In this document: in pieces, positions 1 through 17,108 of the stretch
Layout of the letters: each line of letters starts with the position of its first letter
How positions within the stretch are numbered: the first letter of the stretch is position 1
DNA from: a virus
Virus record (IMG/VR): IMGVR_UViG_3300037493_003155
Coordinates: 1-20,682 of that record
Strand: one strand, 5' to 3'
DNA length: 20,682 nt
Program-made: the position numbers and the translations under genes
The notes under the pieces: generated by a model
What the model saw: only the letters and a program-made list of their open reading frames with translations
What the model was told of the DNA's origin: nothing
The model's database searches: none

Positions 1-49
1 CGACGCCGGGCACCTCGTGCAGCGCGCCGCCGATCAGCAGGCCCCTCAC
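1..49 (-). CDS. Truncated start of the next gene, possible endolysin
   Basis: Only 16 codons are in the window. They begin at a GTG at 49 that overlaps the previous stop (GTGA) and read MRGLLIGGALHEVPGV. The gene runs off the left edge. After two membrane-type lysis candidates an endolysin is expected, and the opening looks like that of some phage amidases, but this is far too short to identify. Treat it as a coupled open frame of unproven function. Confidence 0.5.
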   Translation of the reverse strand, partial: MRGLLIGGALHEVPGV

Positions 50-621
50 AGCGGGGCCAGTCGCGACCCGAACAGGTCGTGATTGATCGCCGCAAACCCG
101 GCCCGCAGATCATCAGGCGACCACTCGAGGCCGGACGACTGCACGCCGCCGCTCGAGCGAGGCTGCATCGCCGCGGTGATCGCCGCGCGGAACGCGCACC
201 GGGGCGCGTCGGAGCGGAACGTCTGGACCGCAGCGCGCAAGGTCTGCCAGTCGACGTGGCCGGTATGGTCCGTCGCGGCGCGCAGCACGTCGCCCACCAC
301 GCCGGTCAGTTCGGCGGCGAGCCGGGCCGTGCTCGGGGCGAGGCAGTCGATCGCCGCGGCCCCGCCGCGCTGGAGCGAGCCGCACCCGGCACTGGTCGCC
401 GCGCCTGCGACCAGCCCGACCGCGAGCAGGATGGACGCGACCGATCCCGCCGACGGGCCGGCCCTGCGCACGTCGACGACGCCCTGCGCGGCGAGCGACG
501 CGGCCAGCGGCGAGCTCGCGAGCATGGCGACCTCGATCGGGAACCCGAGCGCGAGCGCGATCAGGTTGATGATCGACGCGGCGAGGCCGGTCAGGAACTT
601 CTTTGACTTCAAGATCTCCAT
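46..621 (-). CDS. Holin-like membrane protein joined to a lipoprotein-like domain (191 aa)
   Basis: Residues 1-50 look like a small phage holin or membrane protein: a basic start (KSKK, 5-8), a hydrophobic segment FLTGLAASIINLIALALGF (9-27), a hairpin region and AASLAAQGVVDV. Residues 52-80 then look like a separate lipoprotein signal peptide: RR, a hydrophobic core SVASILLAVGLVAGAATS and Cys80 in SAGC. A soluble domain with two more cysteines (C93, C142) follows. An internal GTG at 469-471 would give exactly this lipoprotein. The ATG at 621 overlaps the previous stop (TGATG) and has GGAGG six bases upstream. The stop overlaps the next GTG. Two membrane anchors in one chain, or two products from one gene, are both possible. 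A spanin-like role is inference. Confidence 0.78.
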   Translation of the reverse strand: MEILKSKKFLTGLAASIINLIALALGFPIEVAMLASSPLAASLAAQGVVDVRRAGPSAGSVASILLAVGLVAGAATSAGCGSLQRGGAAAIDCLAPSTARLAAELTGVVGDVLRAATDHTGHVDWQTLRAAVQTFRSDAPRCAFRAAITAAMQPRSSGGVQSSGLEWSPDDLRAGFAAINHDLFGSRLAPL

Positions 622-902
622 CAGCGTCCTCCGCTTTTCTGGCCGATGCCGTTCAGATCCGCGCGGGCCTGCGCGATGTCCTGGCCCTTCTCGATGCGCG
701 CGAGCGCGGTCGACATTTCCGCGTGCGACTCGAGATCGGCCCGCTGGTGCGCGGCGATCTGCGCTGACAGCGCCTTGAAGCCCTCGCCCATCGCGATGAC
801 CTTGGCCTCCTCGACCTTGGAGCGCCGGACCTCGAGCAGGTACCAGACGAGGACGACGAGGCCGGGGAGGCCGAGGGTCCGGGCGAACTCTTCAATGTTC
901 AT
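621..902 (-). CDS. One-segment membrane protein, holin or lysis-accessory candidate (93 aa)
   Basis: This 93-residue protein has a single short hydrophobic stretch LGLPGLVVLVWYLLE (10-24) after an acidic N-terminus (NIEEFARTL), then a long charged helix with heptad-like spacing (EVRRSKVEEAKVIAMGEGFKALSAQI...) and a soluble tail. Positive residues follow the segment (VRRSK), which places the C-terminal part in the cytoplasm by the positive-inside rule. The layout is seen in small phage lysis-region proteins such as holins, antiholins and membrane-anchored helpers, but no family motif is decisive. It starts at an ATG six bases after the LamG stop without a good ribosome site. Its stop overlaps the next ATG by one base (TGATG). 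Lysis is inferred from the neighbours. Confidence 0.75.
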   Translation of the reverse strand: MNIEEFARTLGLPGLVVLVWYLLEVRRSKVEEAKVIAMGEGFKALSAQIAAHQRADLESHAEMSTALARIEKGQDIAQARADLNGIGQKSGGR

Positions 903-14241: not shown

Positions 14242-15249
14242 TTAGTCGGCAGTGATGCCGCGCGCCATCTCGCGGAGCACGTCGTCGCGCTCCTCCTGGC
14301 GAGTCCTGGGCGCGTTGCCGTTGGCCGGGGCGGCGCCGTGGCCGTTGCCCAGCGACTTGCCGGGGCGAACGACGGGCGCGGCTGCGGGCCTTGCGCTGGT
14401 CGCGACGTCGATGCCGAGGTCCGCCAGCTCGGCGCGGCGCTGCGATTCCCACGCGGTGATCACGTCCTCGTGATCGGGCATCTCGCCGGTCTCATCGAAC
14501 AGCCGCTCGGCGGTCTGCCACAGCGCGGCGCGGGCCTTCTCGGGTGCCTTCGCGGCGAGCTTGGACAGCAGCGGGGCGTTGTCGTTCGCGACGGCCTTGA
14601 TCGTCAGGTCGAGATACTGCCCGCGCTGCGACTCGAATTGCTGCGCCTGGTCCCGGGCGGTCAGTTTCGCCTCGAGAGCGGCGAGCTTCTGCTCGTGCGC
14701 GGAGATGCGATCCGTGCTCTCGCGCTCCCGAATCGCTTGATCGGCAGCGGCGCGGTTTTTGGGGTCGGCCTGTCCGGCCTTGCTGCGGGCGTATATGTGG
14801 CGGGCGGCGAGCTCAAGGTCATCGGCGGTCAGGCCGAGATGCTCGAGCACGGCGGTCGGGTCGTACTTCGCGCGCTTCGCCAGCGCCTCGAAGTCCTGCG
14901 CGGCCTTGAGCCTCGGGGCGATGTCCTGCTCGAACTGCTTGCGCTCGGCGTCGAGCGCGGCTCGGGCGTCGGTGCGATCCTTGGCGATCTGCTCGCGTTG
15001 GCGCTTTTCCTGCGCCTTGATGGTCGCGAGGCGCTTGCCTGTCTCGGCATCGGCCGGCGCAGCCTCGACAGCCTCGGCAGAGGCATCCTCCACGGCATCG
15101 ACAGCAGGCGCGTCCTCGGCAGGGAGAACCTCGGCGGGCGCCGACTCGACGGGCGCGGCCTCGACGACGGGATCAACCGTCATCGACGCCATCTCCGCGA
15201 GCACTGTTGCCCGATCCGCGCCTGCCGCCGATGCCGTGGGTTCAGCCAT
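14242..15249 (-). CDS. Scaffold-like head assembly protein
   Basis: This 335-residue protein between portal and major capsid protein has the build of a scaffold, the core around which the shell forms and which then leaves. Residues 1-68 are an Ala/Glu/Pro-rich acidic stretch without predicted fold. Residues 70-125 (KAQEKRQREQIAKDRTDAR...) and 165-215 (HEQKLAALEAKLTARDQAQQ) look like coiled coils. The C-terminal part has a helical region (LWQTAERLFDETGEMPDHED), a disordered PAAAPVVRPGKSLGNGHG linker and a charged final helix with EERDDVLREMARG. Scaffolds often bind the capsid through such a C-terminal helix. There is no protease motif, so maturation protease activity is not supported. The ATG start has TAGGAG four bases upstream. 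Confidence 0.8.
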   Translation of the reverse strand: MAEPTASAAGADRATVLAEMASMTVDPVVEAAPVESAPAEVLPAEDAPAVDAVEDASAEAVEAAPADAETGKRLATIKAQEKRQREQIAKDRTDARAALDAERKQFEQDIAPRLKAAQDFEALAKRAKYDPTAVLEHLGLTADDLELAARHIYARSKAGQADPKNRAAADQAIRERESTDRISAHEQKLAALEAKLTARDQAQQFESQRGQYLDLTIKAVANDNAPLLSKLAAKAPEKARAALWQTAERLFDETGEMPDHEDVITAWESQRRAELADLGIDVATSARPAAAPVVRPGKSLGNGHGAAPANGNAPRTRQEERDDVLREMARGITAD

Positions 15250-15290
15250 GCGTCTCCTACGTGTACACGATACACGATGTCATGCAACAA
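15250..15290 (-). promoter_or_regulatory. Portal-scaffold gap with palindrome, tandem repeat and ribosome site
   Basis: This 41-base gap is one of the few spaces in the cluster. On the minus strand it holds TAGGAG (15254-15259), four bases before the scaffold ATG. It also contains a perfect 10-base palindrome CGTGTACACG at 15260-15269 and, overlapping it on the plus strand, two tandem copies of ACACGAT at 15265-15278. The palindrome abuts the ribosome site, so a protein or RNA fold there could control scaffold translation. The sequence elements are seen; a role is inference. Confidence 0.4.
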
Positions 15291-17108
15291 CTAACCCGCC
15301 ATCAGATTCATGGCCTCGGGTGCGAGCGCGGCGACCGGCTGGCCCGGATCCATCGGCATCGCGGCGTTGTCGTTCGCGGGTGCCGCCGCCCGCGAGAACA
15401 GCTCCGCCGCCTGCGTGCTGTACTGCCGCAGACTCTCGAGCACCTCCTCGGGTGCGCCGAGGTCGCGATCACGGAGGTAAGCCATCTGCGAGACGCGGAC
15501 GGCGAGCTGGAGGTTCGCGAACGGCTCGGGCGTCACGTAGTCGCCATCCTCGATCGTCTCGACGTCCTTCTCGATCGACTCGATGCCCTGCGTGTAGAGC
15601 GAGAGCACGCGGTCGAGGTCGGGGTGCTCGGTGATGCGCCGCCACTCGTCCGTCGAGATCACGCCCGCCTGCGCCCACTCCAGCGCGAGCTGGTAGCGAC
15701 CGGCCGGCGTGCGCGAGAGCGTCGAGGCCGCGACGATCTGGATCAGGACGTCCTGCATGTCGACGTCCGACCACTTGATCTTGCGGGCGCCGAACTTGGT
15801 CCGCTTGCTGATGACCGGCGCGGCCTTGCCGAGATCCTTGCAGCAATCCAGCACCAGGACCACGACGTCGAGCCACAACCGCTCAAACGCCTTCTCCTGC
15901 ATCGCGAACCGCTGCGTGGTCTGGTCGCGGTACTCGCGCATGGCCACGCCGCTATCGATGCCGGCCGGCTTGACCGACTGCGCCGCCATGCGCGAGACGC
16001 CCGACTCCTCGTAGGCCGAGGACTTGAGATCGTCGCGCGACTTGTACGTCTCGCCCGAGACGGCCTGCGGGATGATCGTCACGGGCGGCGAGCCCTTGAT
16101 CACGGCGATCGTGCCGAGGCGGTTCGTGGTCTTCGTGGTCAGGTTCGCGTCGGCCATGCTCACGTAGGTCGTGGGTACGGCGAGCTGGTCGAGCTGGCGG
16201 TCGATCTGCCAGTTCCGTTTGTTGAGCGCCCGTTGATGGCCCGCGATGCGCTCGGCGAGGCCGATGCCGTACCAGCCATTGGCGCGCTCAGACCAGCGAA
16301 TGACCGCAAACGGAAACGCCGGCTTGTGCCATTCCTCGTCGAGTAGGTCGCAGCCGTCGATCACGATCGTGTGGCGCCCGGGGCGGTGACTTGCGCCGCC
16401 GATCTTGCCGAACGCGAGCCGCCACGACTCGATCACCACGATCTCGTTATTCTCGAGCGGCCGGTAGTCGGCCCACGATCGCCAGTCCCTGGACATGCCG
16501 CGCTGCGCCGCGCGGATCTTGTCCTCGTACTCGGGGAACATGGCGACCAGCTCGTCACGGTCGAACGTCTGCCGCTGGTGTAGCTGCTTGGGGCTGCCGC
16601 CGTGGCGGCACTCGACCTCGTCGACGACGATGTTGTCGATCAGCACGTGCTCGACGCGGATCTCGTCGTCCTCGGTCGCGAAGACCTTGACCAGCCCGGT
16701 GCCCTTCAAGGCCGCGCCCATCTTGAACGCCATGCGGCAGGCCGCGCCGACGTTGAGCAGCTTGCACAGCCCCTCGGTGTAGAGCTCCAAGCCCTTCGCG
16801 GTGCGCTGCGTGGACCAATCGCCGTCGTCGGTCATAAACCGCGCGCGGACGTCGACCGCCGCGACGACCGCCGCGACCGTGTCGATGTTGCTCGCGATCA
16901 CGTTCTCGGTCACCAGGCCGAGCTGGTCCAGGCCGCGCCGGACGTCACCCGCGCTGTTGTTCGGGTCATACAGCGAATCGAGCTTCACGAACCGATCGAA
17001 CAGGTCCGCCTGCTGCGCCTCGACCGTCGAGACGTAGTCGAGGATCGCGGTGTACTTGCTGCCCTCCTCGACGTTCCACCACGCACGCTGATTATGCGGT
17101 TGCTTCAC
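15291..17108 (-). CDS. Portal protein
   Basis: At 605 residues, directly after the terminase and before the scaffold-like and capsid genes, this is the portal: the dodecameric ring at one capsid vertex through which DNA enters and leaves. Portal-like features include the early helical part (QQADLFDRFVKLDSLYDPNN), the wing-type region with VFATEDDEIRVEHVLIDNIVVDEVE, the GWYGIGLAERIAGHQRALNK helix typical of portal stems, and a long helical C-terminal half with a QTTQRFAMQEKAFERLWLDV segment. The last 60 residues are Ala/Pro-rich and probably flexible. It starts at a GTG overlapping the previous stop (GTGA), with GGAG eight bases upstream. The assignment rests on order, size and family-like sequence; no catalytic motif is expected. 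Confidence 0.9.
   Translation of the reverse strand: MKQPHNQRAWWNVEEGSKYTAILDYVSTVEAQQADLFDRFVKLDSLYDPNNSAGDVRRGLDQLGLVTENVIASNIDTVAAVVAAVDVRARFMTDDGDWSTQRTAKGLELYTEGLCKLLNVGAACRMAFKMGAALKGTGLVKVFATEDDEIRVEHVLIDNIVVDEVECRHGGSPKQLHQRQTFDRDELVAMFPEYEDKIRAAQRGMSRDWRSWADYRPLENNEIVVIESWRLAFGKIGGASHRPGRHTIVIDGCDLLDEEWHKPAFPFAVIRWSERANGWYGIGLAERIAGHQRALNKRNWQIDRQLDQLAVPTTYVSMADANLTTKTTNRLGTIAVIKGSPPVTIIPQAVSGETYKSRDDLKSSAYEESGVSRMAAQSVKPAGIDSGVAMREYRDQTTQRFAMQEKAFERLWLDVVVLVLDCCKDLGKAAPVISKRTKFGARKIKWSDVDMQDVLIQIVAASTLSRTPAGRYQLALEWAQAGVISTDEWRRITEHPDLDRVLSLYTQGIESIEKDVETIEDGDYVTPEPFANLQLAVRVSQMAYLRDRDLGAPEEVLESLRQYSTQAAELFSRAAAPANDNAAMPMDPGQPVAALAPEAMNLMAG

Follow-up and report, generated by a model that had tools for sequence, protein, structure and literature searches.

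The window, that is, the whole stretch of DNA analysed here, is a virus record of 20,682 bases; a comparison with 50,697 phage records revealed nothing closely related to it. Its minus strand encodes a terminase, a portal, a major head protein and a tail component bearing Peptidase_S74. The gene under study is the final one of the record, which stops 45 bases beyond it, and its organization is summarized below:

621..902, minus strand: upstream gene, 93 aa, with one N-terminal membrane segment followed by a charged helix
628..632, minus strand: ribosome-binding site GGAGG, 6 bases upstream of the ATG
619..623, minus strand: TGATG overlap, in which the upstream gene (621-902) stops and the composite gene starts
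46..621, minus strand: composite gene, 191 aa (open reading frame and alignments), consisting of a holin-like module A, an internal signal-like membrane segment and a putative periplasmic domain with three Cys
460..621, minus strand: module A, residues 1-54, two weak membrane segments predicted to form a hairpin that is N-in/C-in according to charge
544..597, minus strand: hydrophobic segment 1, residues 9-26 (GES scan)
478..531, minus strand: hydrophobic segment 2, residues 31-48 (GES scan)
469..471, minus strand: GTG codon 51, proposed as a nested start, unsupported
388..441, minus strand: hydrophobic segment 3, residues 61-78 (GES scan), internal and signal-like, ending in S-A-G-Cys80
382..384, minus strand: codon of Cys80, candidate site of lipidation and cleavage, invariant in nine of nine fused proteins
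49..384, minus strand: C-terminal domain, residues 80-191, with D92, C93 and C142 invariant

The upstream gene and the composite gene are likely to be translationally coupled via the TGATG overlap. From its N-terminus onward, the window protein presents a basic stretch, a pair of weak membrane segments and a linker with RR and GTG51, followed by a third segment and SAGC80; the layout given in the original prediction (GTG at 469-471, RR, a hydrophobic core and SAGC80 with Ser at -3) is hence confirmed on the sequence. Comparison of the protein with the PHROGs, Pfam and NCBIfam models gave no match except one chance-level PHROG, and nothing was found among the PDB sequences or, at the DNA and protein level, among the phage records. 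Prophages in named genomes, which were sought by the C-terminal domain and the capsid protein, were not found either, and P0004 had no match among the viral contigs. The product of the window gene at 909-1721 has a weak relative in L018 (4877-5599; 27%) and no family match; by its position it could be a fibre tip or an adhesin.

Relatives of the window were reached via its major head protein (14 viral contigs) and subsequently via a conserved gene of the tail region (12 loci). Several of these 12 loci extend to the lysis region, where some phages have a fused gene at the matching place and others have separate ones. The window protein and P0002 had no matches in the first 14 capsid-relative contigs, and further fused genes were obtained in later scans with alignments of the C-terminal domain. 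Copies were set aside before counting, namely L028, L035 and L036 (of L029 or its near-identical contig), L038, L042 and L046 (of L037), L018 (of L030), L041 (of L032), L045 (of L044), L047 (of L043), L048 (of L039) and L049 (of L040). The distinct fused proteins number nine, the window included:

Window: 46..621, minus strand, 191 aa
L037: 5001-5684, 227 aa
L029: 14617-15321, 234 aa
L032: 15010-15642, 210 aa
L030: 17574-18386, 270 aa
L039: 4698-5336, 212 aa
L044: 4749-5357, 202 aa
L040: 4437-5387, 316 aa
L043: 4473-5378, 301 aa

Since the records of L040 and L043 hold no match to the head protein or the terminase of the window, the fused gene is not limited to one phage group. The record of L029 contains a terminase homologue (G021:C1:28016-29473) with one in-frame TAA, which may reflect a sequencing error, an intron-like break or decay.

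The alignment from Cys80 onward revealed four residues, Cys80, Asp92, Cys93 and Cys142, that are invariant in all nine fused proteins; the conservation of Cys80 in homologues, which the original prediction had put forward as a check, is thereby borne out. With L037 the window protein can be aligned over the full length (27% over 214 columns; BLASTP E 2e-10 in a single comparison), and the shuffle z-scores of its C-terminal domain amount to 17.3 for L043, 14.6 for L044, 11.6 for L037, 11.1 for L040, 10.2 for L039 and 5.3 for L032; the joining of a holin-like and a lipoprotein-like part thus exceeds what chance would give. Low values were obtained for L030 (1.9), L029 (1.1) and a stand-alone version of the domain (1.2). 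The latter is a 122-aa lipoprotein of MW202816.1 with its own signal ending in TLAC20, and its gene is located directly before an amidase gene. It is matched by the domain of L029 (z 14; BLASTP E 1e-10), which in turn scores 7.7 with L040. Judged from these sequence comparisons, the link between the window domain and the stand-alone lipoprotein is indirect and runs through intermediates and the invariant residues. In the same way, direct BLASTP of the window protein against L018/L030 gave chance segments only, and the link passes via L032 and the invariant columns. A chance Cys in an Ala-rich protein was considered and rejected, because Cys80 and three further residues are invariant in nine of nine proteins and the z-scores range from 5 to 17 for six relatives. 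An AlphaFold2 model, with a pLDDT of 59.6 for the whole window protein and 67 for the C-terminal domain, depicts this domain as mostly helical with four helices; its best matches in the fold libraries (E 1.2 viral, 2.9 PDB) are meaningless at a pLDDT of 67. C93 and C142 are candidates for a disulfide, and given the odd number of invariant Cys residues one of them would stay free if these two pair.

The segments N-terminal to the shared domain represent four sets, with high shuffle z-scores within and mostly background between them:

Module A (shuffle z): window, L037, L029; stand-alone genes of L022, L016 and L017
Module B (shuffle z): L032, L030
Module C (shuffle z): L039, L044; stand-alone genes of L031 and L025
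Module D (shuffle z): L040, L043

The top z-score between sets, 4.8, was found for L030 and L043, both of which have a signal-like stretch at the N-terminus. Two of the modules, A and C, are found as holin-like genes of their own as well, and the Cys80 domain stands alone once. The N-terminal part of the window protein resembles the stand-alone protein of L022 (42% over 50 aa, E 8e-6), and module C of L039 resembles those of L031 (62%, E 2e-16) and L025 (50%). Relatives of module A match PHROG 9987 ‘holin’, both as stand-alone proteins (L022 8.6e-5, L016 0.0034, L017 0.035) and in the fused state (L037 0.049, L029 0.13); the window protein itself gave no match to this PHROG. None of the modules is monophyletic in the domain tree (0% of 200 bootstrap trees in every case), and modules C and D need at least two changes, judged by starred branches. 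L039 (module C) is paired with L040 (module D) with support values of 97/93, and L029 (module A) with the stand-alone protein with 100/99. The modules are scrambled on the domain tree, which indicates that module and domain have been recombined several times. On this sequence basis the gene is very probably a composite that has repeatedly been reshuffled, and its composite architecture is well supported. The proposal that two modules are joined in one gene, made from the window sequence, accordingly holds up: the N-terminal part is like stand-alone holin-like genes, the C-terminal part stands alone in MW202816.1, and Cys80 is retained throughout the fused proteins. A by-eye idea that module D is a relative of P0005, the gene preceding the stand-alone lipoprotein of MW202816, gained no support from the comparisons and was dropped.

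The topology was assessed by a GES scan combined with a count of K+R. The fused proteins contain two, three or five membrane segments, and the charge bias places the Cys outside in all nine of them (K+R in even versus odd loops 5:0, 5:1, 6:1, 0:6, 7:0, 7:0, 5:0, 10:0 and 7:1). L032 is the odd case, with one segment before the last one and an N-out orientation by charge; in its relative L030 the Cys-outside end is regained through an extra signal-like segment at the N-terminus. An identical predicted outside end reached from differing starts fits a domain that needs export. After the Cys of the window protein no segment attains the cut-off, and the best 18-residue GES value is 0.35.

The residue at position -1 is Ala or Gly in all nine fused proteins and in the stand-alone protein, and Asp never occurs at +2. 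The strict lipobox [LVI][ASTVI][GAS]C, which was taken from PMC6139136, is found in none of the nine fused proteins and, with the stand-alone protein included, in none of ten. Position -3 is occupied by S (window), Q (L037), T (L029), L (L032), S (L030), A (L039), Q (L044), M (L040) and Q (L043), and by T in the stand-alone lipoprotein. The core of PROSITE PS00013 fits four of the nine. According to PMC6139136, spanins with deviating boxes are known and an AWAC box is functional. The presence of an invariant Cys at the predicted membrane exit represents fair, though not decisive, evidence of lipidation.

The off-consensus lipoboxes also suit an uncut chain, in which the periplasmic three-Cys domain would remain tethered to the holin-like module and regulate it or act as its sensor, by analogy with the domain of the T4 holin T to which the antiholin RI binds; in a variant of this scenario Cys80 may be lipidated without cleavage or have another role. 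The periplasmic globular domain of T is described in PMC12162936 as regulatory and disulfide-bonded. T resembles the fused proteins in carrying a C-terminal periplasmic domain with Cys on a holin-like protein, the invariant C93 and C142 are located on the predicted outer side as well, and fusion to four unrelated modules could reflect selection for tethering. However, T has one membrane segment (PMC12162936) and the window protein three, no stand-alone lipoprotein version of the T domain is known, and PDB sequences and fold libraries revealed no sequence or fold link between the two. A Cys exactly at the membrane exit that is preceded by Ala or Gly in nine of nine proteins would be needless for a mere tether, and the domain does exist as a stand-alone lipoprotein. 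We therefore regard the uncut chain as rather unlikely.

A way of making two products was part of the original prediction, namely that GTG51 serves as a nested start and yields a separate lipoprotein precursor in the same frame. From GTG51 onward, RR, a hydrophobic core and SAGC at position 30 follow each other, and in-frame GTGs with signal-like sequence are found 24-34 codons before the Cys in L032, L044 and L043. A start codon is present 20-40 codons before the Cys in eight of the nine fused genes, but chance predicts 5.9 on the basis of 21-codon windows of the same genes and 6.8 on the basis of synonymous redraws, so that the observed number is at the chance level. The zone is devoid of ATG, GTG and TTG in L037, its sole start in L030 is a TTG without ribosome site, and among the other fused genes the start codons vary in type and place. 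Native starts have a ribosome-site match of 4-6 bases in eight of nine genes and of 3 in L040. The site before GTG51, which had already been called weak, is a 3-base AGG match with a spacing of 11; within the zone, none of the start codons has a match of 4 bases to the core AAGGAGG. The longest formal internal matches, GTGATC before codon 175 of L040 and GATC before codon 50 of L044, stem from the portion of the search pattern that extends past AAGGAGG and sit in membrane segments. Owing to the chance-level codons and the weak ribosome site the nested start was rejected, and a separate product from GTG51 appears very improbable. A single precursor accounts for all nine fused genes, whereas the nested start fails for L037 and L030.

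The genomic neighborhood bears on the function of the composite gene. An endolysin domain is encoded downstream of seven of the nine fused genes, i.e., GH25 in L039, L037 and L030, Amidase_2 in L043 and L044, and, with a score under the Pfam cut-off, CHAP in both L032 and the L029 copy L035. No endolysin domain was seen downstream in L040, and the window record ends before that region. The unfused relatives L022 and L025 harbor a holin-like gene together with an Rz-like gene, the latter with an Rz1-like lipoprotein embedded in it:

L022, 14977-15366 with 15197-15451: Rz-like gene with Rz1-like gene embedded in another frame
L025, 16037-16420 with 16233-16496: Rz-like gene with Rz1-like gene embedded in another frame

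The embedded Rz1-like genes suggest diderm hosts for this phage group. Near the eight fused genes that are sequenced on both sides no Rz/Rz1 pair was detected by an ORF scan, which found the pair of L025 and missed that of L022 and is thus of low sensitivity. A replacement of the o-spanin by the fused lipoprotein is conceivable. Proteins with a single membrane segment and a charged helix precede most fused genes (window, L029, L037, L032, L030, L039, L043 and L044); in the window product of 621-902 the helix is cytoplasmic by charge, judged by eye, and thus unlike an i-spanin.

The lysis regions contain additional small genes. A second, unrelated family of stand-alone lipoproteins is found in L031 (8724-9086) and L023 (10633-10986), and the former has a weak O_Spanin_T7 match (0.055). 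A Cys-rich lipoprotein-like protein of 81 aa without PHROG match is encoded directly upstream of the fused gene in L044 (4507-4752). Small two-segment membrane proteins precede the fused genes with module C in L039 (4460-4654) and L044 (4305-4490); they share the pattern DGP.GE.V.AI by eye and may represent a second holin or an antiholin. L016 (8269-8691, minus strand) and L026 (15752-16174) encode a 140-aa lipoprotein-like protein with the motif HELGHVLGLQD and a weak match to Matrixin (Pfam 0.0028, under the cut-off). Its gene sits between holin-like and endolysin-like genes, and from its sequence the protein is possibly a metalloprotease lipoprotein of the lysis cassette.

A role outside lysis would make the product an envelope lipoprotein, e.g., for superinfection exclusion, that borrows small membrane proteins for its export, so that the N-terminal modules are not holins. 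Only module A bears a holin label, which is weak and comes through relatives, apart from a chance-level match for the stand-alone module C of L031; modules B and D are without named relatives, and the same cassettes hold other small membrane proteins. This explanation is nonetheless improbable, given the endolysin domains downstream of seven of nine fused genes and the fact that L022, L025 and L031 have their stand-alone module A and C genes next to genes of the Rz/Rz1-like or lipoprotein type.

Spanins occur in four gene layouts according to PMC6139136, which also describes the two closest counterparts. Like the two-component spanins Rz/Rz1, the composite gene would supply a lysis-locus lipoprotein, and the relatives L022 and L025 carry Rz/Rz1-like genes; unlike Rz1, the fused lipoprotein domain follows in frame behind a holin-like module and is not embedded in, overlapping with or beside an i-spanin gene. 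As a further difference from Rz/Rz1, the Cys of the fused proteins is followed by 112-127 residues, of which 4-9% are Pro. The unimolecular spanin gp11 of T1 likewise combines a lipidation signal and a membrane segment in one chain, but there the lipid signal comes first and the membrane segment is C-terminal, whereas the membrane segments of the fused protein come first. The order that defines u-spanins, an N-terminal lipidation signal and a C-terminal membrane segment, is accordingly reversed. The small holins of PHROG 9987 are matched by the module A relatives; in contrast, the window protein is unmatched, and the matches of L022, L016 and L017 are stand-alone proteins. The fbcH polyprotein of cytochrome b/c1 consists of a polytopic and an exported protein, which are synthesized together in a single chain that is cleaved at a signal in its interior. 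It is thus similar to the composite protein in principle, but it involves signal peptidase I and respiratory proteins.

The most economical scenario, which we place ahead of the tethered regulator and to which we assign nearly even chances, is a processing model with one chain that is split by its lipoprotein signal. The chain would be translated from the ATG at 621 without requiring an internal start, and its first part would insert into the membrane as a hairpin. The third segment would act as an internal lipoprotein-type signal, leading to export of the C-terminal domain. Lgt of the host would then lipidate Cys80 and signal peptidase II would cut before it; from this cleavage, which we infer, a holin-like inner-membrane protein and a lipoprotein would be released. 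Under the sorting rules of E. coli, a lipoprotein without Asp after the Cys is directed to the outer membrane. Because Asp is missing there, the released lipoprotein would by these rules reach the outer membrane, where it would join the envelope-breaking step of lysis. We count the invariant residues, the Ala or Gly at -1, the charge bias, the module exchange, the stand-alone domain and the adjoining endolysins in favor of the processing model. Counted against it are the strict lipobox in none of ten proteins, the three Gln at -3, the lack of family models for the window protein, the z-scores of about 1 between the window domain and L029 or the stand-alone protein, and the separate lipoprotein gene upstream in L044. 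The fact that we found no internal signals cut by signal peptidase II in print was also counted against the model.

In the literature, holins, endolysins and spanins each figure as a protein of their own (PMC6139136). A holin-like module and a lysis-locus lipoprotein in one gene, rebuilt with four unrelated modules, would add another layout. No report of holin-lipoprotein fusions was found in open-licence PubMed Central papers, as far as the available excerpts extend, including PMC6139136, PMC3556154, PMC6102473 and PMC12596118. It is conceivable, although we remain doubtful, that the fused genes represent a further lysis architecture, in which holin and outer-membrane lysis lipoprotein are made as one polyprotein and split by the signal peptidase II of the host, with a lipoprotein cassette that is traded among phages and joined to whichever holin is at hand. 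A gene that couples the two parts would keep the two lysis proteins at a fixed ratio, and it would account for some phages that seemingly lack an outer-membrane lysis gene. With this gene one could also examine directly whether a polytopic protein can be split by signal peptidase II. The joining of one domain to four unrelated membrane modules points to an undescribed packaging of the proteins with which phages burst their hosts.
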